Source: Gemmobacter lutimaris (GTDB lineage: Bacteria; Pseudomonadota; Alphaproteobacteria; Rhodobacterales; Rhodobacteraceae). Taken from it: a stretch of 64,000 nt of DNA. The stretch lies in NCBI RefSeq assembly GCF_003570715.1, contig NZ_QXXQ01000005.1:186001-250000 (forward strand), in the 5' to 3' direction. Shown here in pieces: positions 33,704 through 59,123 of the stretch (the first letter of the stretch is position 1; each line of letters starts with the position of its first letter). The position numbers and the translations under genes are program-made. Below the pieces are notes generated by a model. It saw nothing but the letters and a program-made list of their open reading frames with translations, had not been told where the DNA came from and did no database searches.

Positions 33704-33849
33704 CCCTTGTTCCTTGCAAAATACTCCCGGAGGGGGAGCCCGGAACGGGCGGGGGAGGCAGGCAGTAAACAAGGAACGACATAATTTCAATTCTCTAGAT
33801 GTGTTCCCATGGATTTATACGCCAAATATACGCCGTGCCGCATTGGGCT
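33704..33849. other. Probable left junction of the phage-like element
   Basis: Within this gap the sequence passes from chromosomal kinase DNA to phage-type genes. No tRNA and no clear core att repeat was recognised. The segment near 33785-33840 (TTTCAATTCTCTAGATG and following) is AT-richer than the chromosome to its left. The junction is inferred from the change of gene content only. Confidence 0.4.
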
Positions 33850-36641: not shown

Positions 36642-36916
36642 CGGAACAGATCGAACGCCGCTTCGATGGAGTCGATCACATGCACCACGGTCCCGGCGCG
36701 GCGCAGCTTGGCGATTTCCCGAACCTGATCCGGCCGCAGCGTCTCGCCGGGCGCCTTGTATTCCACGAGGAACGGCCCGGTATCGTCGCGGCTATAGAAC
36801 TTATCTGGCGCGCCGCGCCGCCCGGTCCAAGCCAGCTTGCGGACAATGAAGCCCGCCGATTTGGCCCGCTTGTCGGCCTGCGCTTCGATGTAAGCCTCTT
36901 TCACGCCGCTCGACAT
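36638..36916 (-). CDS. VRR-NUC domain nuclease
   Basis: A 92-residue stand-alone VRR-NUC protein. The catalytic pattern is GAPDKFYSRD followed by FLVEYKAPG (Asp and ExK) with a downstream Gln in LRPDQVREI. Such small phage VRR-NUC proteins act as structure-specific nucleases. The start MSSGVKEAY at 36916 overlaps the end of the methylase-like gene by 16 bp and its stop couples to the SNF2 helicase. Confidence 0.88.
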   Translation of the reverse strand: MSSGVKEAYIEAQADKRAKSAGFIVRKLAWTGRRGAPDKFYSRDDTGPFLVEYKAPGETLRPDQVREIAKLRRAGTVVHVIDSIEAAFDLFR

Positions 36917-37680
36917 TCCGCAGCGCCTCCTTGCAGTAGATCGTTGAAGTGGTGCAGCGGCTTGCCCCATGTGCGGGCCATGGCTGCGGAGATGCCGGGA
37001 TATGTGGCGCTGCGGGTCTTCCAGCGTTCATCGCTGGGCGACAGCGCGTTCTGGCCGCTGTCTGTCTGGTTCGCCCAGCGTTCCACGGTCTTGCCGCTGC
37101 CTCTGGGCCATTCCACGCGCCGACCCGCAACCCGCTGATCCGCAAACCGAAGCAGCGGGCGCAGGTTGTGCAGCCAAAGGCATGTCGCCTTACTGGCGTC
37201 GTCACCGAAGTCGTAAGGCTGGATGATCTGATCCGGCTTGCGGATCGCGGTCGAAATCGCGCCAACGGGGTTTTCGATTGCGATGCGGGGCAGGGGCAGG
37301 GCCATGATGCGGCGAACCGTCGCCAAGGCTTCCCGACGCGCGCGCGCGCGGGCCTCTCCGGTCAGCGTGCCGGGCTTGACCCTCTGGTGATACCCAACGC
37401 CGGGCCAGCGCGCGAAATCAGGCTCATTGAACGCCCAGGCCGCGCTATTGGTCAGATAGGTGCAATCCGGGTGGAACACGCCGAGGTCGAATGTAAGGCC
37501 CACAGCGGTAAAGCGCGCCAAGGTTTCGAACACATCGCCCTGGACGTGCCCCCCTGCGGCGGGCCGGAACACCGACCCATCCACCGCAGGAAGAATGTCG
37601 CACGACACGACGAAGTGGCCCCGCGCTTCGAAGGCCCGGCGCGTCATGCCGCTGGTTTCCATGCCGATGAACACCCTCAT
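36901..37680 (-). CDS. C5-cytosine-methyltransferase-like protein
   Basis: A 259-residue protein. The N-terminus MRVFIGMETSGMTRRAFEAR resembles SAM-binding motif I, and VSCDILPA holds the acidic SAM ligand. HPDCTYLTNSAAW occupies the place of the catalytic PCQ loop (Cys about 72), and IAIENPVGAIS corresponds to the ENV motif. No restriction enzyme is nearby, so any activity is probably an orphan phage methylase or base modifier. It is coupled to PolB by a 4-bp overlap. Confidence 0.65.
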   Translation of the reverse strand: MRVFIGMETSGMTRRAFEARGHFVVSCDILPAVDGSVFRPAAGGHVQGDVFETLARFTAVGLTFDLGVFHPDCTYLTNSAAWAFNEPDFARWPGVGYHQRVKPGTLTGEARARARREALATVRRIMALPLPRIAIENPVGAISTAIRKPDQIIQPYDFGDDASKATCLWLHNLRPLLRFADQRVAGRRVEWPRGSGKTVERWANQTDSGQNALSPSDERWKTRSATYPGISAAMARTWGKPLHHFNDLLQGGAAECRAA

Positions 37681-43854: not shown

Positions 43855-46338
43855 ATGTTGGAACAGGCGGTCGGCCTATCGGAAATCGGCTTTGCGCTGC
43901 ATTGGCTGCATCAGCGGTCAAAGCGGCCCATCGGCAAGGATTGGGCGAATAAGCCCGTAAACTCGCCCCAGAAATTGCGGGATACATTCGACCCCAAGTT
44001 CAACTTGGGTGTCCGTCTCGGAAAATGGTCAAACCTCAGCGGGTTTTTCCTTTACATCATCGACGTTGATATTCGTAAGCCCGAACTTGCCCAGGACGCG
44101 CTGGACAAGCTGGGCGACATGCTGCCCGAATTGAACACGCATGTCGCGCCCTGCGTCGTGTCGGGTTCGGGGGGCGCAAGCCGTCACTATTACCTGCTTT
44201 GCGACAAGCCTTTCCCGTCACGGAAGTTCGCCCATAGCCCCAGCTTCACGCTGGTATGGGATGACGACAAGGGCCGTGACGTTAAGAAGTGGGATTGGGA
44301 ACTCCACTTGCTTGGCACTGGTTCGCAGGCCGTAATTCCGCCCTCGATCCACCCCGATACCGGCAAGCGGTATAAATGGATCAGGGAGTTTGACAGGTTC
44401 GACTTCGAGTTCGGCGCAATCGACCCGGTTCCTGCCGAAGCCTTGGAGCGGCTTGTCGGCTATGAAAGCGTTGGGGAGATAAACCCCGAACGCCTTCGGC
44501 CCATGGGGCTGAGCCTGAGCGACATGCGGGATTACCTCGTTGACCTGCCGGTTGAAACGTGGGTCGAGGACCGTGACGGCTGGTATCGCCTCGGCATGGC
44601 GATTCACCACGAAACGGCGGGCAGCGTTGCGGGTTTCGACCTGTGGTGTGAGATTTCGCGCCAGTCGAAGAAGTTCGATGAGCGGGACTCCAAGCGGGTC
44701 TGGAAATCGTTCAGGGACCGCAGCGACCGCCTGCCGTTCCGCATGGCTTCTATCGTGGCCGTGGTCAACGACATGCGGATGGAAAGCGAGTTCGAGGACT
44801 ACGGCGAGGATGATCTTGACGCCGAGGTGGCGGCGGCCCGCGCCGAGGACGAAGGCACGACGCCGGGCATGTTCGATGACCTGTTGGGCGACGCCAACGG
44901 GAAGGTGCCGGGTCGCAAGCCCTCGAAGTCCCAAGTGGCTCTGGCGCGGCAGCAAGCCGAAGATGCGCTTGGCAAAGAGGTGCCGAAATGGATCAGGCGC
45001 ATGAACCAGAAGCACGCCCTTCTTCGCAACGAGGGGCGGACTGTGGTGATGGATTTCAAGGCGAACGGTGACGTTGCGTTCGGCTCTGTGTCCGATCTTC
45101 ATCAGCTATATGAAAACGACCGGCGCCCGAAAGACGATACCACGGTGCCGGTGTCGAAGCTGTGGATGCAGCATAGCGGGCGAAGGACTTACCCCAATGG
45201 GGTGGTGTTTCTGCCAGGCAAAGACCTCGAAGGGACATACAACTATTGGCAGGGCTTTTCCGTTGAGCCTGACGGCACGAAGTCGTGCGCGCTTTTCCTG
45301 CGCCACCTCCGCGAAGTCTATTGCCAGAACGACGAAGACCTTTTCAGTTACCTGATCCGGTATTTCGCCCATCTGGTCCAGCAGCCCGAGGACAAACCGG
45401 GGGTCGCGCTGGTGGTTCGCGGCGGCAAGGGCTGGGGCAAGGACACGCTGTTCGAATACATCGGGCGCCTGTGCATGAACCACTACGTCGGCGTGTCGCA
45501 CAAGGATCATGTCGTCGGCAAGTTCAACCACCACGTTATGAAATGCCTCGTCCTCCACATGGAAGAAGCATTTTGGGCCGGTGATAAAGCCGCCGATGGC
45601 CAGCTAAAGAGCCTGATCACAAGGCCGACGATCCTCATCGAACCCAAGGGGTTGAATCCCTTCACAATGAACAGCGTGCTGCGCCTGTTCATCACATCGA
45701 ACGAAGATTGGGTTGTGCCAGCGACGCCGGGCGAACGCCGGTATTGCGTGTTGGACGCCAGTTCGAAACATAAGGGGAACCACGCCTATTTCCGCGCATT
45801 GCGGGCCGAGATGGACGGCGATGGTCCTGCGGCATTGCTGTATCACCTCCTGAATATCGACCTCACCGGCTTCGAAGTAAGGGAAGTGCCGAATACCGCT
45901 GCCTTGGGTGAACAGAAACTTCAGGGCCTCAAGAACGTGGACCGCTGGTGGTTCGACGTTCTTCAGCAGGGTTACATCGAAGGGTTCGGCCGCGAAGCGG
46001 ACAATATCGACACGCTGTCATGGGCCAATGGCGAAGTGAGAGTTGCGAAGGCCGAATTGCGAGAGGTATATGAGCGGTGGCTGAGAACTAGGCGCTATGA
46101 CGGCGAGGCGCTTTCCCCGGTCCATTTCACGAAACGCCTGCGCTACCTGCTTCCCGGTATGGTATTGACCAGGTATCGCGGATCAGCGGGACTCGCCCAG
46201 GGGTTCGTAATTCCTGATTTGCAGCGCGCCAGGACCGAGTTCGAAACCGCCATTGGATCGGTGATCAATTGGGAAGGCGAAGGCGCCGTTGTCGATGAAA
46301 CGGAAGACGATGATCTGAGCAATGGCGAGGGGGATTGA
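43855..46338 (+). CDS. Prim-pol/DUF5906 primase-helicase
   Basis: An 827-residue replication initiator-type protein. The N-terminal 200 residues resemble the bifunctional primase/polymerase domain (GKDWANKPVNSP, FLYIIDVDIRKPE, SGSGGASRHYYL). A linker (about 310-375) contains EFEDYGEDDLDAE and MFDDLLGD. The C-terminal SF3-type helicase has Walker A RGGKGWGKDTL (about 522), VLHMEEAFWAGD and the sensor FITSNEDWVVPA, matching DUF5906. It should unwind and prime at the element's origin. Confidence 0.88.
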   Translation: MLEQAVGLSEIGFALHWLHQRSKRPIGKDWANKPVNSPQKLRDTFDPKFNLGVRLGKWSNLSGFFLYIIDVDIRKPELAQDALDKLGDMLPELNTHVAPCVVSGSGGASRHYYLLCDKPFPSRKFAHSPSFTLVWDDDKGRDVKKWDWELHLLGTGSQAVIPPSIHPDTGKRYKWIREFDRFDFEFGAIDPVPAEALERLVGYESVGEINPERLRPMGLSLSDMRDYLVDLPVETWVEDRDGWYRLGMAIHHETAGSVAGFDLWCEISRQSKKFDERDSKRVWKSFRDRSDRLPFRMASIVAVVNDMRMESEFEDYGEDDLDAEVAAARAEDEGTTPGMFDDLLGDANGKVPGRKPSKSQVALARQQAEDALGKEVPKWIRRMNQKHALLRNEGRTVVMDFKANGDVAFGSVSDLHQLYENDRRPKDDTTVPVSKLWMQHSGRRTYPNGVVFLPGKDLEGTYNYWQGFSVEPDGTKSCALFLRHLREVYCQNDEDLFSYLIRYFAHLVQQPEDKPGVALVVRGGKGWGKDTLFEYIGRLCMNHYVGVSHKDHVVGKFNHHVMKCLVLHMEEAFWAGDKAADGQLKSLITRPTILIEPKGLNPFTMNSVLRLFITSNEDWVVPATPGERRYCVLDASSKHKGNHAYFRALRAEMDGDGPAALLYHLLNIDLTGFEVREVPNTAALGEQKLQGLKNVDRWWFDVLQQGYIEGFGREADNIDTLSWANGEVRVAKAELREVYERWLRTRRYDGEALSPVHFTKRLRYLLPGMVLTRYRGSAGLAQGFVIPDLQRARTEFETAIGSVINWEGEGAVVDETEDDDLSNGEGD

Positions 46339-49097: not shown

Positions 49098-49198
49098 GAG
49101 CCACATTCTGCGCACCCCTTGCCATGGATTCCATCGCCTCGATCCTATTCCGTCGCGGTGCGCCGAAGCGAGGCGTGACGCGGGCCGAATTTGGGCCG

Positions 49199-49520
49199 TT
49201 CAGGGTTGTTACCCTGAACAGTTCAGGGTAAAAAATCGCCACCCTGAACACCTAAGTCTATGATATTTATGACGAAAAGACTGGTGTTCAGGGTGTGCAG
49301 GGTAAAATTGGGGAAAATCGCCAGGAATCTGGGAAAAGCGTCTCAAAGTAGTTCAATGATTAAACTATATCAGATTTTCAGGAATCAGGATGAAAAACCA
49401 CCATGAACACCCTGAACACCCTGAACACTACCATATATTCCAAGTAAAATATAATAAATATATATACTTAGGGTGTTCAGGGTAGTGTTCAGGGTAAACC
49501 CATATGTTCAGGGTAAACCT
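49199..49520. other. Putative replication origin: CCTGAACA iterons flanking an AT-rich core
   Basis: About ten copies of an octamer-to-decamer (ACCCTGAACA or its complement TGTTCAGGGT) occur at 49199-49250, 49285-49294, 49400-49430 and 49471-49516, in both orientations. They surround a segment very rich in A and T at 49431-49470 (ATATTCCAAGTAAAATATAA and following). No gene covers the region. Iterons beside an AT-rich stretch are the usual layout of a plasmid or phage origin, and a prim-pol/helicase gene lies 3 kb away. Confidence 0.7.
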
Positions 49521-49525
49521 TCCTT

Positions 49526-49587
49526 CGTTCGATCCTATATTATTTCAAGCCTAAATAGTTGCAAATGCAATTGAATAGGATCGAACG
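49526..49587. repeat. 13-bp inverted repeat with GATCGAAC core
   Basis: CGTTCGATCCTAT (49526-49538) and ATAGGATCGAACG (49575-49587) are exact complements 36 bp apart, directly right of the iterons. The same GGATCGAACG core is repeated at 49677 and 49745. Confidence 0.7.
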
Positions 49588-49650
49588 AGTGGGGTATTTT
49601 GATACCACTGAAAATGGGGGTAAAAATTTCGGGTCGCCCCGGCTCAAAAT

Positions 49651-49755
49651 CCGTCGATACGTTCCATCCGTCGATAGGATCGAACGGAAAACCGGGCCAG
49701 CGATGGAACCTATCCCATCCGTCGATACGTTCCATCCGTCGATAGGATCGAACGG
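49651..49755 (+). repeat. 37-bp exact direct repeat (two copies)
   Basis: An identical 37-bp sequence beginning CCGTCGATACGTTCCATCCG and ending in the GGATCGAACGG core occupies 49651-49687 and 49719-49755, 68 bp apart. Together with the adjacent inverted repeat it forms a second repeat family beside the iterons. Confidence 0.8.
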
Positions 49756-50032
49756 CGGGCCAGCCGACAGCATCACCCCGGTTCACAGCCGTGGCCCGGT
49801 TGTCGGTTGAGCGTCAGTCTCGAAATCGACGCGGATTGTCAGTAGGTCGTCGGTTTGGAAAGTGGCACGGCCGCAGAACCGCAATGCCGCTGAACCGGAG
49901 TGCCGTCAGACGCGGGGAATTGGGCGTTTCCACCGAAAAAACTGAAAAAGTGCCGATCAACCGAGCCTCGGAGCCTCCCCCCGGCAGGGCCTGGGCCGGG
50001 AAGGACCCGAAGCCAAGCCCTGCCGGGCCAGC

Positions 50033-50227
50033 GGATCGACGGGGGAACGGATCGACGGGGGAACGGATCGACGGGGGAACGGATCGACGGGGGAACGGAT
50101 CGACGGGGGAACGGATCGACGGGGGAACGGATCGACGGGCCAGCGGATCGACGGGCCAGCGGATAGACGGGCCAGCGGATCGACGGGCCACGCCGGGCCA
50201 GACGGATCGACGGGGGAACGGATCGAC
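50033..50227 (+). repeat. 16-bp tandem array
   Basis: GGATCGACGGGGGAAC repeats head to tail from 50033, with ten copies in strict 16-bp register and two more slightly out of phase up to 50227. Later copies read GGATCGACGGGCCAGC. Because 16 is not a multiple of three, all forward frames cycle through the same codons without stops, so the long open frames here are not evidence of a gene. Confidence 0.85.
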
Positions 50228-50249
50228 CGGCCCGGCGCCTTGGCGTGCT

Positions 50250-50427
50250 GATCCTCGAGCGGCTGGCGTGCTGATCCTCGAGCGGCTGGCGTGCTGATCC
50301 TCGACCGGCCCGGCGCCCTGATCCTCGACCGGCCCGGCGCCCTGATCCTCGACCGGCTGGCGCCCTGATCCTCGACCGGCTGGCGCCCTGGCGCCCCGAT
50401 CCTCGACCGGCACGCGGCGCCCTGGCG
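50250..50427 (+). repeat. GC-rich mosaic repeat array 1 (about 7 units)
   Basis: Seven units of a 23/24-bp element built as CTGGC or CCCGGC, then GTGCT, GCCCT or GCCCC, then GATCCTCGA, then CCGG or GCGG. The array follows the 16-bp array and ends in GCGCCCTGGCGTCAAAAC, leading into a promoter/operator cassette. It has no stop codons on the minus strand, which explains a spurious 205-codon frame. Confidence 0.9.
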
Positions 50428-50447
50428 TCAAAACTTGTTATTGCCCG

Positions 50448-50464
50448 ATCAACAAAAGGTTGAC
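50448..50464. promoter_or_regulatory. 17-bp operator-like palindrome with -35 element
   Basis: ATCAACAAAAGGTTGAC lies 54 bp before the gene at 50519. The right arm provides TTGACC as a possible -35, with CAGATT 17 bp downstream. The surrounding 50 bp are nearly identical to those after array 2. Confidence 0.6.
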
Positions 50465-50518
50465 CGCGTAACGCGGCAATGGCAGATTAAGACGTGACGC
50501 GAATCTAGGGGAATTGAA

Positions 50519-50737
50519 ATGATCAAAGATGAATTGACCATTTGGCGCCTGACGTGGAGTCATGCGACCGGCGTTTATTGGCTGGCAATGCGCCTTTGCC
50601 AGCGTGACGACTCCGAGGCTTGGCTGGATATTTTCCGCAAAGATGAGCGCGGCGTTACCTTTGCGGCAAGCCGCAAGAAACCCGCTTTGCCTGACAATGC
50701 GCGCCAAATGGCGCGGCATGTTGCAATGTTTCGCTGA
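50519..50737 (+). CDS. Hypothetical small protein
   Basis: A 72-residue protein beginning MIKDELTIWRLTWSHATGVY, preceded by AGGGGAATTG. It is the first of three small genes between arrays 1 and 2, running under the operator at 50448. No domain recognised. Confidence 0.6.
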   Translation: MIKDELTIWRLTWSHATGVYWLAMRLCQRDDSEAWLDIFRKDERGVTFAASRKKPALPDNARQMARHVAMFR

Positions 50738-50751
50738 TAGGAGTCGATCCG

Positions 50752-51162
50752 ATGAAAACCAGTGTAACCAACAAAATCACCACGGGGCATTTCAGCCTGC
50801 GCGACTCCTTTGATATTCCCGCAGGCACGCCGGTAATCTTCGGGGCGCCGGATTGTGACGGGAAGCCTTTCCCGCATTGGGTGCTGGCCGAAGAAACCGC
50901 CGCGCGGCTTTCCGGCAATCCGCACGACGCCGCGCGGCGGTTTATCGTGGTGCATCCCGATCACGTCACCCCGGCGCCGGGTGACGGCTACGCCGCACAA
51001 CTGGCTCATAGCCGCGCCAATTTGCCAACGCTGGCCGAAGTCAGGGCCATGGCCCGGCGTGAAAAGCGGGAAATTGTGCAGCGCGTGCTTATGGCGGATG
51101 ACACAATTGCCTGTATCAAAGCTGGGCCGCGTGGCGGCCTGAAGATTCTCGGCCGGTTTTAA
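50752..51162 (+). CDS. Hypothetical protein
   Basis: A 136-residue protein preceded by AGGAGTCGATCCG. The N-terminal part is beta-rich (ITTGHFSLRDSFDIPAGTPV, FVVH-like strand FIVVHPDHVTPAPGDGY) and the C-terminus is basic. No family recognised. It is the second gene of the cassette between arrays 1 and 2. Confidence 0.6.
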   Translation: MKTSVTNKITTGHFSLRDSFDIPAGTPVIFGAPDCDGKPFPHWVLAEETAARLSGNPHDAARRFIVVHPDHVTPAPGDGYAAQLAHSRANLPTLAEVRAMARREKREIVQRVLMADDTIACIKAGPRGGLKILGRF

Positions 51163-51176
51163 GGGGAGTCCAGACA

Positions 51177-51401
51177 ATGCGCCCCCTGATCACTGGCCCG
51201 AAGCTGGCAACCGATGAATATATCTATTCGCGCGGCAAGGCGTCGCGCGACGCGGCCGAAGAACGGATTGAGTCGCTGATCTGTGAAGGGGAGATAAGCC
51301 CGGCGGAAAAGCCGCGTGCCGCGCGTTACACGCTGGCCGATGGCGTCACAGCACGCTGGGCCATTGTTTTGACCGATACCGCCCTTTCGCCCTACGTCTG
51401 A
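51177..51401 (+). CDS. Hypothetical small protein
   Basis: A 74-residue protein (MRPLITGPKLATDEYIYSRG and following), preceded by AAGGGGAGTCC. It is the last gene before an intrinsic terminator. No domain recognised. Confidence 0.58.
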   Translation: MRPLITGPKLATDEYIYSRGKASRDAAEERIESLICEGEISPAEKPRAARYTLADGVTARWAIVLTDTALSPYV

Positions 51402-51404
51402 TCC

Positions 51405-51443
51405 GCACGCCAGCACGCCAGCACGCCAGCACGCCAGCACGCC
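51405..51443 (+). repeat. 8-bp tandem repeat
   Basis: GCACGCCA is repeated five times (the last copy partial) between the 51401 stop and the terminator hairpin. It is probably a slippage-prone simple repeat. Confidence 0.75.
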
Positions 51444-51444
51444 G

Positions 51445-51476
51445 GGCCGCCCTACATAGGGCGGCCATTTGCTTTT
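51445..51476 (+). terminator. Intrinsic terminator before array 2
   Basis: GGCCGCCCTA (51445-51454) and TAGGGCGGCC (51457-51466) form a perfect 10-bp stem, followed by ATTTGCTTTT. It ends the three-gene transcript; array 2 begins immediately after it. Confidence 0.88.
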
Positions 51477-52668
51477 CTGGCCCGGCGCCCCGATCCTCGA
51501 CCGGCTGGCGTGCTGATCCTCGAGCGGCCCGGCGCCCCGATCCTCGACCGGCCCGGCGCCCCGATCCTCGACCGGCCCGGCGCCCCGATCCTCGACCGGC
51601 CCGGCGCCCTGATCCTCGACCGGCTGGCGCCCTGATCCTCGACCGCCCCGGCGTGCTGATCCTCGACCGGCTGGCGTGCTGATCCTCGACCGGCTGGCGC
51701 CCTGATCCTCGACCGCCCCGGCGCCCTGATCCTCGACCGGCTGGCGCCCTGATCCTCGACCGGCTGGCGCCCTGATCCTCGACCGGCTGGCGTGCTGATC
51801 CTCGAGCGGCTGGCGCCCCGATCCTCGAGCGGCCCGGCGTGCTGGCGTGCTGATCCTCGACCGGCTGGCGCCCTGATCCTCGAGCGGCTGGCGCCCTGAT
51901 CCTCGAGCGGCTGGCGCCCCGATCCTCGAGCGGCCCGGCGTGCTGGCGTGCTGATCCTCGACCGGGCTGGCGCCCTGGCGCCCTGATCCTCGACCGGGCT
52001 GGCGCCCTGATCCTCGAGCGGCTGGCGCCCTGATCCTCGAGCGGCTGGCGTGCTGGCGCCCTGATCCTCGACCGGCCCGGCGTGCTGATCCTCGAGCGGC
52101 CCGGCGCCCTGATCCTCGAGCGGCCCGGCGCCCTGATCCTCGACCGGCTGGCGCCCTGATCCTCGACCGCCCCGGCGTGCTGATCCTCGACCGGCCCGGC
52201 GTGCTGATCCTCGAGCGGCTGGCGTGCTGGCGTGCTGATCCTCGAGCGGCTGGCGCCCCGATCCCCGACCGGCCCGGCGCCTGATCCTCGAGCGGCTGGC
52301 GCCCCGATCCCCGACCGGCCCGGCGCCTGATCCTCGAGCGGCTGGCGCCCCGATCCTCGACCGGCCCGGCGCCCTGGCGTGCTGATCCTCGAGCGGCTGG
52401 CGCCCCGATCCTCGAGCGGCCCGGCGCCCTGATCCTCGACCGGCTGGCGCCCCGATCCTCGACCGGCCCGGCGTGCTGATCCTCGAGCGGGCTGGCGCCC
52501 TGATCCTCGAGCGGCTGGCGCCCTGATCCTCGAGCGGCTGGCGCCCCGATCCTCGACCGGCTGGCGTGCTGATCCTCGAGCGGCCCGGCGCCCCGATCCT
52601 CGACCGGCCCGGCGCCCCGATCCTCGAGCGGCTGGCGCCCCGATCCTCGACCGGCTGGCGCCCTGGTG
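51477..52668 (+). repeat. GC-rich mosaic repeat array 2 (about 48 units)
   Basis: About 48 consecutive 23/24-bp units fill nearly 1.2 kb with no unique spacer. Each unit combines independently variable parts: CTGGC or CCCGGC; GTGCT, GCCCT or GCCCC; GATCCTCGA (rarely GATCCCCGA); CCGG or GCGG. Occasional doubled sub-units such as CTGGCGTGCTGGCGTGCT indicate slippage or recombination. The minus strand has no stops in any frame, which yields a meaningless 406-codon open frame. All three arrays have the same orientation. Confidence 0.95.
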
Positions 52669-52688
52669 TCAAAACCCGTTATTGCGTG

Positions 52689-52705
52689 GTCAACAAAAGG
52701 TTGAC
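52689..52705. promoter_or_regulatory. 17-bp operator-like palindrome with -35 element
   Basis: GTCAACAAAAGGTTGAC is a near-perfect dyad 61 bp before the gene at 52767. TTGACC at 52701-52706 and CAATCT 17 bp later form a possible promoter. The flanking sequence from array end to TAAC matches that after array 1. Confidence 0.62.
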
Positions 52706-52766
52706 CGCATAACCTGAAACCGGCAATCTAAACACACGGCGAATCGCGCCTGAAAGGAACGCAGGA

Positions 52767-52964
52767 ATGGATAACCTTTTGCCTTTTGCGAACCATGCCA
52801 GCGGCTTTAACGCCGCGCGGGCCGGTATCGCTGCGGAATACATTAGGCGCAATTTTGCGTCGCGGAACAATTGCCGCGCCAGCGCGGCCTATAATCGGGC
52901 CGCGTTGCGAGATGCTTGCGCCGCGTTGCGTTGCGGCAAAGCCTTGGGAGTCGTGAAATGCTGA
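52767..52964 (+). CDS. Hypothetical small protein
   Basis: A 65-residue Ala/Arg-rich protein preceded by AAGGAACGCAGGA. It overlaps the next gene by 7 bp. It is the first gene of the long small-gene operon between arrays 2 and 3. No domain recognised. Confidence 0.58.
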   Translation: MDNLLPFANHASGFNAARAGIAAEYIRRNFASRNNCRASAAYNRAALRDACAALRCGKALGVVKC

Positions 52965-53167
52965 TCCGCGCCGCCAAGCCGCGCCCCGTCATCATTGCGG
53001 CCCGGAAAGCCGCGCGCGCCGCTGGGGCGATGACCTACGCCGGGAATCCGTGTCACGCCGGGCATGATGGGACTCGCTACACCGCAACGCGGCAATGCGT
53101 GGCTTGCGCCAAGGCGGCCCGGCTGGCCCAGACCGAACGCGAAAAAGCCGAAAGGGGCGCCAAATGA
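52958..53167 (+). CDS. Small Cys/His zinc-binding-like phage protein
   Basis: A 69-residue protein. YAGNPCHAGHDGTRYTATRQ followed by CVACAKAARL gives the C..GH.G.RY...CV.C pattern common in small phage proteins related to HNH-associated zinc ribbons. It starts inside the previous gene and overlaps the next by 4 bp. Confidence 0.65.
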   Translation: MLIRAAKPRPVIIAARKAARAAGAMTYAGNPCHAGHDGTRYTATRQCVACAKAARLAQTEREKAERGAK

Positions 53168-53241
53168 GTTTCGCCGCTGGACTGGCCCTTGCCGTGATCT
53201 GCGCCGGGCTTTTCGCAACTTGGGCCGCGCCGCGCCTTTAG
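53164..53241 (+). CDS. Single-span membrane peptide
   Basis: A 25-residue peptide (MSFAAGLALAVICAGLFATW then AAPRL) starting in an ATGA overlap with the preceding gene. It is a single hydrophobic helix with a basic end. The tight coupling supports it being real; function unknown. Confidence 0.5.
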   Translation: MSFAAGLALAVICAGLFATWAAPRL

Positions 53242-53252
53242 CGGGCCATTTG

Positions 53253-53269
53253 ATCAACAAAAAGTGGAG
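53253..53269. promoter_or_regulatory. Degenerate 17-bp operator-like palindrome
   Basis: ATCAACAAAAAGTGGAG keeps the left arm, while the right arm has become TGGAG and overlaps the ribosome-binding site of the gene at 53281. Confidence 0.4.
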
Positions 53270-53280
53270 CAAGAAACACG

Positions 53281-54279
53281 ATGACGAACAAAACACCATG
53301 GCAACGCGCCACGGCCCCGGATTGCACGCTTTCCGAAGCGTGGCACGCCTCGCCCTATGTCAGCACCGAAGCCGCGCCCCGCAATATCGCTTTGGTCCGG
53401 GCTTTCCGGTTTCATCGCGGCCGCATGGTCGGGCCGCGCGCCTTGCGCATCAGCGCCACGGCCGCCTTGGCTTTCGCGCAGCAGGACGTGGAACAGGGCA
53501 AAGCCCGCTGGCCCGGCCATGGCACCACCCAAGCCGGGGCGCCGGATGAGCAAGGCTTGCGCTATGTCGAGAACCCGACCGCCATGGGCCTTCGGCTTGT
53601 CGGCTATGTCCGGCCCGAGTTCCGTCATGCCCGCGTCTGGCATGACGGCGATATGGGGTATTACGACAACCCCTATTCCGAGTCGTGCCGCGACGGTTCA
53701 GGGCTGATTTATGGCGTGGTTTATCAACTGCCGGGCCGGAACGGCGAGTCGCGCTTCGTCGCGGGTTACGTCGCGGGCGGGGATTGTGGCGACGGCGCAA
53801 CCATTGATTTGGGCCGGGTCTTCACCGATCCGCGCGGCGATTATTACGCAGCGCCGGGCGACCTCGACGCGGCACGCGACGCGGCCCGCGCGGCCGACTC
53901 CATCGCGGAACACGCGGCGGAACAGGCGCGGGAACATGAAACGGCTTGGCGCGCCGGAAGCGAATGGCGTGAAGCCGTGGAACGGATCAAAGACGCGCGC
54001 CGGGAATATTACGCCTTGAACGCTGAGCGGCGGATGATGCGCCGCCGTATTGGCGCGATGCCCGGCGTTGAATTGATCTGCGCCACGATCCGCAAAAATC
54101 TTTTGGCCCTGGCCGATGAAATCGGAGAGGCGCGGGACCGCATGACCGAATTGGCGCGGGACCGCATGACCGAATTGGCGCGGGGCGACTGTTCCACGCT
54201 CTGCTTTTACCCCAGCGACGTTTTGCGGGCCGCGTTTTGCGACGGCGCCGACTTGCCGCTCGACGCATTCCCGGCCTGA
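53281..54279 (+). CDS. Hypothetical phage protein with internal 24-bp duplication
   Basis: A 332-residue protein. The N-terminal 200 residues are globular with no recognised fold (WHDGDMGYYDNPYSESCRDG). Residues about 200-305 are a long charged coiled coil. The eight residues ARDRMTEL occur twice in tandem near 284-299, from an exact 24-bp DNA duplication. Function unknown. Confidence 0.65.
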   Translation: MTNKTPWQRATAPDCTLSEAWHASPYVSTEAAPRNIALVRAFRFHRGRMVGPRALRISATAALAFAQQDVEQGKARWPGHGTTQAGAPDEQGLRYVENPTAMGLRLVGYVRPEFRHARVWHDGDMGYYDNPYSESCRDGSGLIYGVVYQLPGRNGESRFVAGYVAGGDCGDGATIDLGRVFTDPRGDYYAAPGDLDAARDAARAADSIAEHAAEQAREHETAWRAGSEWREAVERIKDARREYYALNAERRMMRRRIGAMPGVELICATIRKNLLALADEIGEARDRMTELARDRMTELARGDCSTLCFYPSDVLRAAFCDGADLPLDAFPA

Positions 54280-54316
54280 AACCCGCAACACAGCCTGAAG
54301 CAAGGAAACCCGAACG

Positions 54317-55084
54317 ATGACTTTCACGCTTGACGACGCCAAAGCCATGGCCCCGGAAAATGCTTTTGACGTGACGGCGGAAAACTACGTCGCCCGCTGG
54401 AAGACTCCGAATGAATATCACCGCGAAGGCTATGTGACTGGCGCGCGTTTCGCGGCTTTCGCCTTGGCCCGCGACATTTTGACCGAATTGCAGCCCGAGT
54501 TGACGGGCTGGACCGTCGCCACCTATGACAACGAACCCGCCACGCTCAACTCCGACCGGGTTTCGCTGCGGAAAGGCCCGGCCCGTATTTGGCTGACGTG
54601 CCAATCTTGGGGCGCGGCCGGGTTTCAGCGTGTGAAATTCCAAGCCTATTGCGTGTCGGAAGACAATCGCAGCGGCCCGAGTGTTGAAGCCAGTGCGGCG
54701 CTTGACCGTGGCGCGGCCGCCATCGCCAAGGAAATCAAGCGCCGCATCCTGCCCCGGCTGGAAGATTTGACCAAGGCGCAAAACACCAAAGACAAGGCGG
54801 CCCGTGAAACGGCCGCGCGTTTTGCCGCCAAGCTGGAAAAGTTGATCCGCAAATACCCCGATCTGCGGATCAAGGCGGAACAGCCCGAAAAGGCCGATTA
54901 CATCAGCGTAAGCACGAAATACGGCGCCGCCATTTCCGCCGATCTGCGGATCTATGAAACGTCGGCTCGGCCCGACGGTGAATTGGTTTGGCGCGCAATG
55001 CCGCGCAGCGGCTACGGGGTTTCGATTGACGACATTGACTCCAAGGCGGGCCGCGAATTTTTCGCCCTGCTTAATCGTGCGTGA
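54317..55084 (+). CDS. Hypothetical phage protein
   Basis: A 255-residue protein, preceded by AAGGAAACCCGAACG. It is an alpha/beta N-terminal domain (to about 130), a basic helical segment (AAAIAKEIKRRILPRLEDLT) and a C-terminal beta-rich part. No family recognised. It belongs to the array 2-3 operon. Confidence 0.62.
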   Translation: MTFTLDDAKAMAPENAFDVTAENYVARWKTPNEYHREGYVTGARFAAFALARDILTELQPELTGWTVATYDNEPATLNSDRVSLRKGPARIWLTCQSWGAAGFQRVKFQAYCVSEDNRSGPSVEASAALDRGAAAIAKEIKRRILPRLEDLTKAQNTKDKAARETAARFAAKLEKLIRKYPDLRIKAEQPEKADYISVSTKYGAAISADLRIYETSARPDGELVWRAMPRSGYGVSIDDIDSKAGREFFALLNRA

Positions 55085-55088
55085 CACG

Positions 55089-55211
55089 ATGAACAGCCCC
55101 GCAATGCAATGGCTTGGCGATGCAATCGGCGCCCTGACTCTGGTTATCGGCTTCCCGTTCGGGGCGCCCTACGCCGTGGCGCTGATCCGCGCCGCCTTGT
55201 CCTATCTTTGA
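55089..55211 (+). CDS. Small membrane protein
   Basis: A 40-residue protein with one hydrophobic helix (LGDAIGALTLVIGFPFGAPY). It starts 4 bp after the previous stop. It could be a holin-like or inner-membrane regulator peptide, but this is only size and hydrophobicity. Confidence 0.5.
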   Translation: MNSPAMQWLGDAIGALTLVIGFPFGAPYAVALIRAALSYL

Positions 55212-55233
55212 AACTCCAATAGGGGAATCCGCA

Positions 55234-55725
55234 ATGCCGAAATTTGTGATGGATGGCCGCGACGAAGCGGCGCGCCGGGAAAGCCAATTCGTTTTCGGTT
55301 TCATCGAAGCAATGTTTTTCACGGAAACCGAACCCGGAACCTGTATCGCGGAATGGCATGACGCCGAAGCCGTGGCGATGCGGGAATCCGGTCAATGGGC
55401 CGCGCTTCCCGGTGATGCGGGTTATACCGATCTGCACCCCGACACGCTGGCCCGGATTCGCGCGGATTGCGAAGCCTGGCAAAACGCCCATGTCGATCTT
55501 TTGGCGCTGGCCTATGACCGGCCCGGATATGATGAGGCGCAAGCCGGGCGGGACTATTGGTTTACCCGCAACGGCCACGGAGTCGGCTTTTGGGACCGCA
55601 AGGAATTGCGGGCCGATGATCTGGGCGAAAAACTTTCGCAGGCGTGCCGCTACAGCGAATTGAACCCGTTTTTCGGCAACCATGTGAGCCATGGTGACGC
55701 GCCATTCGTTCACCTCGACATTTAA
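55234..55725 (+). CDS. Conserved phage protein
   Basis: A 163-residue acidic protein. The segment YWFTRNGHGVGFWDRKELRA is a pattern seen in many small phage proteins of unknown function. It is preceded by AGGGGAATCCGCA. No catalytic motif identified. Confidence 0.68.
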   Translation: MPKFVMDGRDEAARRESQFVFGFIEAMFFTETEPGTCIAEWHDAEAVAMRESGQWAALPGDAGYTDLHPDTLARIRADCEAWQNAHVDLLALAYDRPGYDEAQAGRDYWFTRNGHGVGFWDRKELRADDLGEKLSQACRYSELNPFFGNHVSHGDAPFVHLDI

Positions 55726-55742
55726 CGCAAGGAATAACCGCG

Positions 55743-55886
55743 ATGTTGCACCCCGACGACGACCTTAGCCCAAAGCAACGCCGCGCCGTGGCGCGCCATT
55801 GGCACCGCCTGCAAGTCACCCTGCCCGGCATGGGCGCGGGGCGGCGCATCTCGACCCGCAACCCGATCAAGGAGTCGGCCAAATGA
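55743..55886 (+). CDS. Small basic protein
   Basis: A 47-residue Arg/His-rich protein (DDDLSPKQRRAVARHWHRLQ) whose stop is coupled to the next start by ATGA. It may bind nucleic acid. The assignment rests on coupling and spacing. Confidence 0.5.
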   Translation: MLHPDDDLSPKQRRAVARHWHRLQVTLPGMGAGRRISTRNPIKESAK

Positions 55887-56206
55887 TGGCACCCCGCCAA
55901 ATGCCGCGCCGCTATCTCGACGGCGCCCCGCCAATTGTCGCGGCGCAAGTTCTGGACCTGTTCCGCATCACCCCGGCCGCGCCGCTGGATTTTGACCTGA
56001 TCCTGAAGCCCGATCCGGCCGACTCCGAAGTGCTTGGCCTGGACTTCGGCGCCTATGGCACGCGGGGCACGCATTTTTTCCTGACCCGCCATGAGGCGCG
56101 CGCCTATCGTGCCAGGAACAGCCGCCGCCGCGTGGCATGGGCCGATCTGCCGACCGCCACGCAACGCGCGATTGTGGCATATCTGGAATGGGACCCCGCC
56201 GAATGA
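55883..56206 (+). CDS. Hypothetical small protein
   Basis: A 107-residue protein from MMAPRQMPRRYL, with a central FDLILKPDPADSEVLGLDFG segment. It is coupled by ATGA overlaps to both neighbours. No domain recognised. Confidence 0.58.
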   Translation: MMAPRQMPRRYLDGAPPIVAAQVLDLFRITPAAPLDFDLILKPDPADSEVLGLDFGAYGTRGTHFFLTRHEARAYRARNSRRRVAWADLPTATQRAIVAYLEWDPAE

Positions 56207-56448
56207 CTCTTTCCGTCAAGCTGATCATCGGGGCGAATGCCTATGCTTGCGTCACGCATGACGCGGGCCAGACAGACATTCGCCTTTCGCCGGGTAAATC
56301 CGCCGTCGCTTCGCTTCGGGAATACGCCACGGAATGCGAAGCGCGCGCCGCGCGGGAAAAGGACAAGGCGGAACTGGCACGCCGGGCCGCCGATCATTTG
56401 GAACGTGACGCCGGGCCGGGACTGGCGCGACGCGGCGCCCCGGTCTAG
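56203..56448 (+). CDS. Hypothetical small protein
   Basis: An 81-residue protein starting in an ATGA overlap. A short beta N-terminus (LIIGANAYACVTHD) precedes a charged helix (EYATECEARAAREKDKAELA). It ends 10 bp before the HerA-like gene. Confidence 0.55.
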   Translation: MTLSVKLIIGANAYACVTHDAGQTDIRLSPGKSAVASLREYATECEARAAREKDKAELARRAADHLERDAGPGLARRGAPV

Positions 56449-56458
56449 GCTTTTCCGC

Positions 56459-57697
56459 ATGACGACCGCACCGCAAGCCATTGCTCTGGGCCGAGGCGGC
56501 CGCAACGCCCCCGGAATCCCGCTGCACCTCCTGACGCGGCACGCCCTTGTTACGGGCCAGACCGGCACGGGCAAAACCGTAACGCTATTGAGCGTTGCGG
56601 AACAGCTTTCGCGGGCCGGGGTGCCCTTGCTTCTGCCCGACGTGAAAGGCGATCTAAGCGCCATTGCGCGAAGCGTTCCCGGCGTCACGCGGCTGGACGT
56701 GATGAGCGGCGCGGCCCAGATACCGCTTTGGGACTTCGGCGCCGATCTTCTGGGCCGCGCGATGGAACTAAGCGAACCCCAAGCCGCTACCCTGGAAATT
56801 GTTTTTGCCTGGGCCGATGACACGGGCGCCCCGCTCGACACGCTGGCCGATCTTCGGGCCGCGCTGGCCCGCGTGCTGGGCCAGCGCGACGCGGTTTCGC
56901 GGCATTACGGCTATGTTTCGCAAGTCAGCCTTGGAGTCGTTCAACGCGGCGTGCTGCGACTGGAACGCGCCGGGGCGGCCCCGATCTTCGGCCCGGCCCG
57001 GCTTGACATTGCGGCGCTGGTGGATCAACCGGGCCGCGTGACCCTGCTAGACGCGACGCGGCTCTTTCAATCGCCCCGGCTTTACGGCGCGGTAATGCTA
57101 CGGCTGTTGCGGGAATTGTGGCGCCGTTTCCCGGAACGGGGCGACGCGGCCCGGCCCCGGTTCGCTCTGGCAATAGATGAGGCGCACGCCCTTTTTGCTG
57201 AAGCTGGCCCGGCGTTGCTGCGCCAGACGGAACAGACGGCCCGGCTTATCCGTTCCAAAGGCGTCGCCCTGATCCTCGCCAGTCAGATGGAGTCTGACGT
57301 TCCTGCCATCGTGGCGGAACAATGCGCCAGCCGTATCAGGCACGATAGGGCGCTAGGCATCGGTCGGGCCGAACTTGTGACGCTGGACCGCGCCTCGGGC
57401 CGGGCCACGGCGCCGGAAATTGTATGTCCCGTCATGCCGGATTGCGGCACGGCGCCTTGCGACGCCGTGCCCGCGATGACGCTGGCACCAGCGTCGCGCC
57501 CCGCTGATCCGGCCGCGCCGATTAGCGCCGAACCGTGGCGCGACGCCGGGGCGGTATTGGCCGCGCTGCTTTTCGTCGCCGCGCCTATCGTCGCCGTGGC
57601 CCTGATCGTCTGGGGCGGCGGTGGAGCCTTCCTTTTCGGTGTTTTGCTGGCCCTTGGCCTAGTATTCCTGTTCAACCCGCCCCGGCCCGGCGGTTGA
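56459..57697 (+). CDS. HerA/FtsK-like ATPase with C-terminal membrane segments
   Basis: A 412-residue ATPase. Walker A is LVTGQTGTGKTVTLL (about 32-46), LLLPDVKGDLSAIA follows, Walker B is FALAIDEAHALFAEAG (about 238) and the sensor is LILASQMESDVP. This fits the DUF853/HerA-like group. Unusually it ends in two hydrophobic helices (AALLFVAAPIVAVALIVWGG and FLFGVLLALGLVFLF). That would tether a DNA-translocase-type ATPase to the membrane. The start at 56459 was chosen because upstream codons overlap the previous gene out of frame. A terminator follows. Confidence 0.78.
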   Translation: MTTAPQAIALGRGGRNAPGIPLHLLTRHALVTGQTGTGKTVTLLSVAEQLSRAGVPLLLPDVKGDLSAIARSVPGVTRLDVMSGAAQIPLWDFGADLLGRAMELSEPQAATLEIVFAWADDTGAPLDTLADLRAALARVLGQRDAVSRHYGYVSQVSLGVVQRGVLRLERAGAAPIFGPARLDIAALVDQPGRVTLLDATRLFQSPRLYGAVMLRLLRELWRRFPERGDAARPRFALAIDEAHALFAEAGPALLRQTEQTARLIRSKGVALILASQMESDVPAIVAEQCASRIRHDRALGIGRAELVTLDRASGRATAPEIVCPVMPDCGTAPCDAVPAMTLAPASRPADPAAPISAEPWRDAGAVLAALLFVAAPIVAVALIVWGGGGAFLFGVLLALGLVFLFNPPRPGG

Positions 57698-57743
57698 AAT
57701 ACGACGGGCCGCCGCACCAATCCGCCCCAGGTTCTAACCATGG

Positions 57744-57769
57744 CCCGCGCCACGCAAGGCGCGGGTTTT
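57744..57769 (+). terminator. Intrinsic terminator before array 3
   Basis: CCCGCGCC (57744-57751) pairs with GGCGCGGG (57758-57765) over a 6-nt loop and is followed by TTTTC. It closes the operon ending with the HerA-like gene. Array 3 begins about 10 bp later. Confidence 0.85.
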
Positions 57770-57779
57770 CGCTGTTCCG

Positions 57780-58597
57780 GCTGGCGCCCTGGCGCCCTGA
57801 TCCTCGAGCGGCCCGGCGCCCTGGCGTGCTGATCCTCGACCGGCCCGGCGCCTGATCCTCGAGCGGCCCGGCGCCCCGATCCTCGAGCGGCCCGGCGCCC
57901 CGATCCTCGAGCGGCCCGGCGCCCTGATCCTCGACCGGCCCGGCGTGCTGGCGTGCTGATCCTCGACCGGCTGGCGTGCTGATCCTCGACCGGCTGGCGC
58001 CCCGATCCTCGAGCGGCCCGGCGCCCCGATCCTCGACCGGCCCGGCGTGCTGATCCTCGACCGGCTGGCGTGCTGATCCTCGACCGGCTGGCGCCCCGAT
58101 CCTCGAGCGGCCCGGCGCCCCGATCCTCGACCGGCCCGGCGTGCTGGCGCCCCGATCCTCGAGCGGCCCGGCGCCCCGATCCTCGACCGGCCCGGCGTAC
58201 TGGCGCCCCGATCCTCGAGCGGCCCGGCGCCCTGATCCTCGAGCGGCTGGCGCCCTGATCCTCGAGCGGCCCGGCGCCCCGATCCCCGACCGGCTGGCGC
58301 CCCGATCCTCGACCGGCCCGGCGCCCCGATCCTCGAGCGGTCCGGCGCCCTGATCCTCGAGCGGCCCGGCGCCCCGATCCCCGACCGGCTGGCGCCCCGA
58401 TCCCCGACCGGCTGGCGCCCCGATCCTCGACCGGCCCGGCGCCCCGATCCTCGAGCGGCCCGGCGCCCTGGCGCCCCGATCCTCGAGCGGCCCGGCGCCC
58501 TGGCGGCCCGATCCCCGACCGGCTGGCGCCCCGATCCCCGACCGGCTGGCGCCCCGATCCCCGACCGGCTGGCGCCCCGATCCCCGACCGGCTGGCG
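57780..58597 (+). repeat. GC-rich mosaic repeat array 3 (about 32 units)
   Basis: About 32 units of the same 23/24-bp mosaic element as arrays 1 and 2, in the same orientation. GCCCC-GATCCTCGAGCGG and the GATCCCCGACCGG variant dominate here. It starts just after the 57744-57769 terminator and ends at the stop codon of the leftward gene at 58599. Minus-strand open frames through it, including a 453-codon one, are artefacts of the stop-free repeat. Confidence 0.95.
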
Positions 58598-58598
58598 G

Positions 58599-59123
58599 TC
58601 AATCTACCAGAAGCCCGGCGCGCCGGGCTTCTTGCATGAGCCATTCGTGGTTGTCCAAGCCGTCAACCTTGGCGTCACTTGGGTCAATTCGCCTTGGGGG
58701 ATACCCCGTCGCCGTCACGGAGTCGCATGTGAAATCGCCCCTGATAACCGCGCCGTGTAGGTTCTGGGCGTCAAACTCGACAACCCATTGCCAGTTGATC
58801 GGGTTCGGCGGGTTGGCTTTCCATTCTTCCCGCCGCTGATCCCATTGGCGCGTTTCGTGGCCCATTGCGCCCGGCCTTGGGGCGAAGCCAGCCATGTATT
58901 CCTCTGGCGTCATAGCGAATTGGTATAGCTTGGCATCGCGGCGCTTGTATGTCGCAGGCGATATTATCCTATCTAGGAACGCGGTTTCACAACTCGCAAG
59001 CCACGCGGTTCCGCTGCGATTTTCGTATTCCCGGTATCCGAAATATAGCATGGCGCCAAAACCGATTGCCACACCTACGCCTATTAGATTCACACGCTTC
59101 AGCGCCACGTCATCCCGCTCCAA
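58599..59123 (-). CDS. Membrane-anchored hypothetical protein
   Basis: A 174-residue protein with one N-terminal membrane helix (VNLIGVGVAIGFGAMLYFGY) and a soluble, probably periplasmic domain with two cysteines (WLASCETAF, GDFTCDSV). Its last codons contain a perfect 24-bp palindrome and it ends exactly where array 3 stops. It is one of few leftward genes in this half. Confidence 0.65.
   Translation of the reverse strand: MERDDVALKRVNLIGVGVAIGFGAMLYFGYREYENRSGTAWLASCETAFLDRIISPATYKRRDAKLYQFAMTPEEYMAGFAPRPGAMGHETRQWDQRREEWKANPPNPINWQWVVEFDAQNLHGAVIRGDFTCDSVTATGYPPRRIDPSDAKVDGLDNHEWLMQEARRAGLLVD
58609..58632. repeat. Perfect 24-bp palindrome
   Basis: AGAAGCCCGGCG (58609-58620) is directly followed by its reverse complement (58621-58632), inside the last codons of the leftward gene. 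With no loop it could extrude as a cruciform, bind a protein, or act as a leftward terminator for transcripts entering the array. Confidence 0.6.

Follow-up and report, generated by a model that had tools for sequence, protein, structure and literature searches.

Modular tandem repeat arrays at operon borders of a temperate Gemmobacter lutimaris prophage, possibly fast-evolving spacer minisatellites

The 64,000-nucleotide stretch of Gemmobacter lutimaris DNA analysed here (the window; part of a 300,250-base contig) contains three arrays of a modular, GC-rich tandem repeat, which lie in an integrated temperate tailed phage. We hold with moderate confidence that these arrays are fast-evolving, recombination-driven spacer minisatellites at the operon borders of the phage. 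Each array is located past the end of one operon and before the start of the next. The matching gaps of related phages are filled by repeats of a different unit, which suggests that the places of the arrays are kept while their sequence is turned over quickly. With analogous arrays in a related prophage and in related phages, the arrays are not a one-off but one example of a broader class of intergenic phage repeats that has been little described. The prophage has 2.2 kb of non-coding repeat DNA, which needs explaining because phage genomes are compact.

All three arrays were parsed by splitting at GATC, which gave 7, 48 and 32 units in arrays 1, 2 and 3, 87 in total. Tandem Repeats Finder (TRF) recovers the three arrays at the expected coordinates, with scores in the arrays of up to 1231, and the position and approximate number of units given in a first-pass annotation of the window are thus borne out. 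The usual unit reads GATCC-T/C-CGA-C/G-CGG, followed in turn by a CT or CCC spacer, the bases GGCG and a CCCC, CCCT or TGCT sub-slot. The units keep the cores GATCC-CGA and GGCG, and their exchangeable modules are about 7-8 base pairs (bp) long. Units of 23 bp (39/87) and 24 bp (32/87) are the most frequent, and the 13 units of 31/32 bp contain an extra 8-bp sub-unit, in agreement with the doubled sub-units described before; the terminal units of arrays 1, 2 and 3 (30, 27 and 21 bp) end at an array border that we set ourselves. The spacer is CT in 41 cases, CCC in 41, GCT in 3 and another sequence in 2, and the sub-slot is CCCC in 35, CCCT in 32, TGCT in 26 and another sequence in 8. The head is CTCGAC-CGG in 38 units and CTCGAG-CGG in 37, the two states listed previously, to which CCCGAC-CGG (9) and CTCGAC-CGC (3) have to be added. 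The slots had been described as varying independently, and this holds except for one rare head state. Three slot pairs inside units and one between neighbouring units were tested. Independence fits head versus spacer (p=0.21) and spacer versus last sub-slot (p=0.74), and dependence is seen between head and last sub-slot (p=0.010) and between last sub-slot and next head (p=0.019). The rare CCCGAC head stands out in both dependent pairs, with CCCC on both sides only. The units lie on the forward strand throughout the three arrays; a 17-base unit pattern has 36 forward and 0 reverse matches in the 4.66-Mb genome, all 36 inside the arrays, which confirms their uniform direction. The arrays occupy the gaps 50228-50518, 51403-52767 and 57698-58598 among the assigned open reading frames (ORFs) and are thus outside coding sequence; long minus-strand ORFs over arrays 2 and 3 would be a by-product of stop-free repeats.

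The unit occurs as an array in this prophage only, among its own genome and the other genomes, phage and plasmid sequences searched. A 14-base core has 74 matches in the own genome and at most 9, scattered, in any of 100 other genomes. In blastn searches of 50,697 phage records, a query of arrays 1 and 2 with part of array 3 gave no array match (among the 20 of 31 matches listed), nor did array 3. A plasmid search gave no near match and, for array 2, no distant match. Among the matches listed from tandem-pattern scans of viral and genome contigs, no sequence other than the own provirus exceeded two. No second copy of the prophage was found for a comparison of copy number, so variation in copy number is seen in relatives only. 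Searches with the phage polymerase found 1/394 family genomes and 1/385 class genomes, in both cases the own genome, and 2/11 genus genomes, the own genome and that of another species (G001); because this search yielded few relatives, our comparisons rest on few phages.

These results bear on the simplest explanation, that the arrays are an assembly artefact or a generic chromosomal repeat of the REP (repetitive extragenic palindromic) or CRISPR (clustered regularly interspaced short palindromic repeats) kind, which we consider very improbable. Repeats are hard to assemble, and an IMG/VR contig (L295) starts just past the first array of the G001 prophage, as if broken there. Against an artefact, a single contig spans all three arrays, the longest exact repeats are 103 bp within one array and 59 bp between two arrays, the units vary, and analogous arrays are present in other complete phage records; the copy numbers given here are as assembled. 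A sample of 241,868 bases of the same host genome gave seven TRF rows, none with more than 2.5 copies, and contained no such arrays. Together with the scattered occurrence of the core in other genomes, this leads us to reject a chromosomal repeat. The first-pass annotation had already set the arrays apart from CRISPR, from simple satellites and from scattered REP-like elements, and our results agree: there are no unique spacers and no cas family among the ORFs searched, modules are shuffled slot by slot, and three array pieces fold like shuffled sequences (z +0.66 to +1.33). On the last result we also reject a structured RNA.

The closest comparison is with the G001 prophage. It has an array of a 20-bp unit (46.6 copies; array A) between the operon of a HerA-like ATPase and an operon of genes for proteins of 72 and 136 amino acids (aa). 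A second array (array B), 206 bp of 23-bp units, is found past the 72/136-aa operon, directly behind a hairpin that resembles the one preceding array 2. The units of both are unrelated to those of arrays 1-3. When aligned with G001, the IMG/VR record IMGVR_UViG_2596583642_000003 is identical at all 9,133 aligned bases (9,156 columns, no mismatches), and the only gap, of 23 bases, falls within array B; the record may be from the same isolate, in which case the gap would represent variation or assembly.

The nearest named phages by polymerase (~44% aa identity) are the Rhodobacter RcD phages and Rhizobium phage RHph_X2_30, whose records are assigned to Casjensviridae. Ten of the roughly 30 RcD phages in the phage collection were examined in part (RcKeef, RcLkye, RcSalem, RcWhiteOak, RcGingersnap, RcCWillis, RcRios, RcPutin, RcIroh and RcMcDreamy). 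In nine of them we found 17 loci with 1-4 cores of a 70-bp modular unit past a shared hairpin; there are two homologous loci per phage, except for one phage in which a single locus was found, and one of the 17 loci is cut by the record end. As in the G. lutimaris prophage, these temperate relatives (polymerase 44% and HerA-like ATPase 39-40% aa identity) have modular GC-rich units that follow terminator-like hairpins, both past the HerA operon and in the gaps separating operons of small genes, but the unit is longer and a locus has 1-4 cores rather than 7-48 units. Both loci of RcLkye contain a junction module peculiar to this phage (3 and 2 copies) and lack the other junction type, which is present at 10/15 loci of the remaining eight phages; this pattern suggests homogenisation. 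In RcCWillis the 70-bp unit is found in three regions. The available parts of the literature on the RcD right-end repeats contain no unit analysis and state no function, and those of PMC10783043 describe no such repeats.

Other relatives vary. Ruegeria phage DSS3-P1 has octamer and 16-bp modules at the record start and in one operon gap (L391:5522-5823), where 16-bp and 34-bp tandem repeats stand ahead of a TTGACA promoter-like site. The resemblance to the arrays studied here lies in GC-rich modules of 8/16 bp placed in the operon gaps of a phage of the Casjensviridae, and the octamer GGCTGGCG is common to both, possibly by chance; the DSS3-P1 repeats differ in their shorter arrays, other unit and opposite sense relative to transcription. 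Short arrays were also found in RHph_X2_30 (24 bp x 4.8 and 39 bp x 2.7), contig L042/L380 (16 bp x 7) and a gap of RcZahn (22 bp x 4.8). In pCB2051-A (1-50000) and RHph_Y5A (25000-69421) long repeats are inside genes only, and the pieces of contig G445 contain no intergenic array of at least three copies. Relatives without long intergenic arrays therefore exist. An octamer periodicity was considered as a general rule and is borne out in part only: lag-8 autocorrelation exceeds chance in the 16-bp array that runs into array 1, in array B of G001 and in DSS3-P1; array 2 does not differ from chance (0.33 vs 0.33), and array 3 is barely higher (0.38 vs 0.35).

We favour turnover by slippage and unequal exchange because the position of the arrays outlasts their sequence, isolates with one or two copies are viable, the array pieces show no folding signal, and array 3 contains a 103-bp exact repeat that exceeds those in 100/100 shuffles of unit order, which indicates local duplication. 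Copy number also differs among close relatives, as in the 1-4 cores of the RcD loci and the 23 bp in array B of G001. Arrays 1 and 2 both terminate in CCCTGG-C/T-G and are directly followed by near-identical blocks, P1 and P2, with 46/52 identical aligned columns from the array end to a palindrome region. By eye these blocks contain promoters of the form TTGACC-17-CAGATT and TTGACC-17-CAATCT. The phage may re-use terminator-spacer-promoter blocks at several places, which would make the spacers homologous to one another and open to unequal exchange, slippage and strand annealing. Its exonuclease and its Gp2.5/Enc34-like single-stranded DNA (ssDNA)-binding protein would assist exchange and annealing, and the modules could then be duplicated, lost, shuffled and in places homogenised. 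A gap past a terminator and before a promoter might tolerate such growth because of that position. Any function is probably independent of the exact sequence: as spacers or insulators the arrays may keep repressed operons at a distance or insulate them from each other, or they may serve no function. Arrays 2 and 3 have seven unit types in common, which make up 19/48 and 17/32 of their units, and the 59-bp stretch common to arrays 1 and 2 is reached by 3/60 shuffles.

Several results speak against this interpretation. The longest stretch common to arrays 2 and 3 (56 bp) is reached by 45/60 shuffles of unit order, so a recent exchange of long blocks between them is not supported, and 7/100 shuffles attain the length of an 80-bp repeat found in array 2. 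The uniform direction of 87 units and the small number of private variants would fit selection too. The two G001 arrays have no unit in common, and one unit per phage is therefore not a rule; the matching gaps themselves were assigned by eye from gene order. A terminator scan reported 6 sites compared with 9.0 in shuffled sequence and, around the arrays, only the hairpin before array 2, and a sigma-70 promoter scan reported nothing at P1 or P2.

The main rival is that each array is the multi-site target of a co-evolving phage DNA-binding protein, such as a regulator, an insulator or a nucleoid-like factor, so that the place is kept and the sequence drifts as for stoperators or satellite centromeres. 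We regard this as possible but doubtful. It would account for the single direction of the units and their conserved cores, and GATC is also found within the 20-bp unit of G001 and the RcD core. In addition, the blocks that adjoin arrays 1 and 2 hold an operator-like palindrome of the class TCAAC, 3-7 bases, GTTGA, found at 7 places in the prophage versus 0.24 in shuffles. The palindrome is probably an operator, and the seven sites probably form a phage regulon. The same class occurs 8 times in a piece of G445, 11 times in pieces of RHph_X2_30 and once in DSS3-P1, but it is missing from the searched pieces of G001 and RcKeef (0 in each). Moreover, some RcD isolates have only one or two cores per locus, RHph_X2_30 and the G445 contig have a HerA-like gene without a long array beside it, and GATC is abundant anyway, with 450 occurrences outside the arrays against 381 expected from trinucleotides. 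The first-pass annotation had also proposed a centromere-like role; this is not supported, as the element is an integrated prophage, the unit is absent from relatives, and no ParA/ParB family was detected among the ORFs searched, which were not all ORFs. A more specific version, in which temperate Casjensviridae of Rhodobacteraceae would carry 'border satellites' with kept positions, the unit being replaced and homogenised per lineage like centromere satellite DNA because every phage would encode a protein that recognises the array of that phage and thereby insulates or silences operons, seems to us unlikely. A Chi-like hotspot read by a host enzyme is thought unlikely, as two prophages of one host genus differ in unit. 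We also rejected a link to Dam methylation, given how common GATC is in these genomes; the methyltransferase of the phage (family phrog_757) matches no solved structure.

The arrays could instead be common homology for swapping whole operons between phages, a recombination platform as the annotation had suggested, which we find quite unlikely. Over 655 bp, the DNA of the 72/136-aa operon has 80% identity to that of G001 (86% and 82% aa identity for the two proteins), whereas the polymerases have about 45% and the HerA-like ATPases 42% aa identity. With the primase as reference, the 72/136-aa and HerA operons run in opposite directions in the two prophages. In its available part, PMC8601537 reports that repeats correlate with gene diversity in RcD. 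On the other hand, the DNA common to G001 and this prophage begins at a gene, not in an array, and the two prophages have no array unit in common. Among gene-content gaps of at least 100 bp between collinear blocks in six RcD pairs, which have phages in common and are hence non-independent, 0/17 overlap the three repeat loci. Together with stretches common to arrays 2 and 3 that are no longer than in shuffles, this weakens the proposal.

A role in packaging or replication, with the arrays as part of a cos- or origin-associated region, is improbable. A conserved cos-like block lies beside the last array of G001 and of the RcD phages, the terminal repeat of RcSalem, GGGACGCCGACC, equals the reported 12-base overhang in size, and an origin-like stretch (49195-49755) is located beside array 1. 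A search of this prophage for the cos-like block gave chance-level matches only, however, and arrays 2 and 3 are 2 to 9 kb from the origin-like stretch; arrays in RcD phages and G001 are also kilobases from cos. In the RcSalem record (the ends of records OP009273 and MW677524 were inspected) GGGACGCCGACC is present at both ends, together with a terminal AGATCGGA, presumably leftover sequencing adapter.

Bacterial variable number tandem repeat (VNTR) or minisatellite loci consist of tandem units with shuffled variants and changes in copy number. The arrays share the tandem units and the shuffled variants, and changes in copy number are seen in their relatives; they differ in that the same unit recurs at several loci of one genome and in being confined to the operon borders of a phage lineage. 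Mycobacteriophage Cluster A stoperators and Cluster O 17-bp repeats, as covered in the available part of PMC4351075, likewise consist of a short sequence, particular to the phage, that recurs many times and often between genes, with recombination between copies in Cluster O. They are dispersed single sites rather than tandem modular arrays, those of Cluster O are palindromic, and about one third are in genes (PMC4351075). Stoperators are asymmetric sites that the phage repressor binds, oriented with transcription; the array units are asymmetric and co-oriented. What looked like an oddity of a single genome is partly explained away, but a pattern of kept places and changing sequence is testable and unusual for a virus. 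It extends over phages with about 45% polymerase identity and makes satellite-like evolution in a virus tractable for study. Loss or swapping of arrays is directly testable because RcD phages have been isolated and grow on Rhodobacter capsulatus. If the arrays are inert, they would be markers for phage-genome recombination and a warning for short-read assemblies.

The features of the region are collected in Table 1. The 16-bp array, the 8-bp array and the origin-like stretch are not mentioned in the first-pass annotation.

Table 1. Arrays and associated features of the prophage (window coordinates unless stated)
Feature	Position	Strand	Remarks
Left att core, 18 bp	33748..33765		Repeated at contig C45:285588-285605, outside the window
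Repeat-rich stretch	49195..49755		TTCAGGGT/ACCCTGAA copies in both senses; AT-rich core; putatively origin-like
16-bp array	50032..50227	+	CGGATCGACGGGGGAA, 12.6 copies; runs into array 1
Array 1	50229..50427	+	7 GATC-anchored 23/24/31-bp units; after 16-bp array; ends ...CCCTGGCG before P1
Block P1	50428..50518	+	Operator-like TCAACAAAAGGTTGA at 50449-50463; abuts array 1; promoter by eye
Operon between arrays 1 and 2	50519..51402	+	72-aa gene, 136-aa gene, small ORF
8-bp array	51405..51443	-	GCACGCCA x 4.9, complement of sub-unit TGGCGTGC; directly before hairpin preceding array 2
Terminator-like hairpin, T-rich tail	51445..51466	+	Upstream of array 2; reported by terminator scan; fold z -2.10
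Array 2	51479..52668	+	48 units; begins 12 bases past hairpin 51445-51466; ends ...CCCTGGTG before P2
Block P2	52669..52767	+	TCAACAAAAGGTTGA at 52690-52704; abuts array 2; promoter by eye
Operon between arrays 2 and 3	52768..57697	+	Small ORFs; phrog_8188 protein 53281-54279; phrog_1915 protein 55234-55725; HerA-like ATPase 56459-57697
Hairpin, then GTTTTCG	57742..57767	+	Between HerA-like gene and array 3; fold z -1.50; 18/200 shuffles fold equally; absent from terminator scan output
Array 3	57780..58597	+	32 units; between two hairpins; begins 12 bases past the first
Palindromic hairpin	58609..58632		Past array 3; fold z -2.27; absent from terminator scan output
Seven TCAAC-N5-GTTGA palindromes	50449, 52690, 59361, 61789, 62591; continued numbering 67057, 93495		

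The element that carries the arrays is, from its gene content and borders, an integrated temperate tailed phage, and the phage-like element recognised earlier is thereby identified. It is 65,858 bases (65.9 kb) long and bounded by an 18-bp attachment (att) core repeat, with an integrase at its right end and a structural set of terminase, portal, protease and tail genes. Its left part encodes an SNF2 helicase, a DNA polymerase, an exonuclease, an ssDNA-binding protein and a Prim-Pol/DUF5906 primase. The IMG/VR record IMGVR_UViG_2835163134_000004 is the same prophage. Recombination genes found are the phrog_69 exonuclease and phrog_112, and the Gp2.5/Enc34-like protein possibly also has annealing activity. 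The stretch 49195-49755, which also has two identical 39-bp copies and three copies of ATAGGATCGAACG, looks like a replication origin on which the product of the primase/helicase gene at 43855-46338 could act. A search of genome contigs for HerA-like proteins confirmed 0/73 stretches. The HerA-like ATPase is conserved across the RcD phages, RHph_X2_30 and the G445 contig, and by eye has two likely C-terminal membrane helices. The methyltransferase phrog_757 (36901-37680) has no Pfam, NCBIfam or PDB sequence match.

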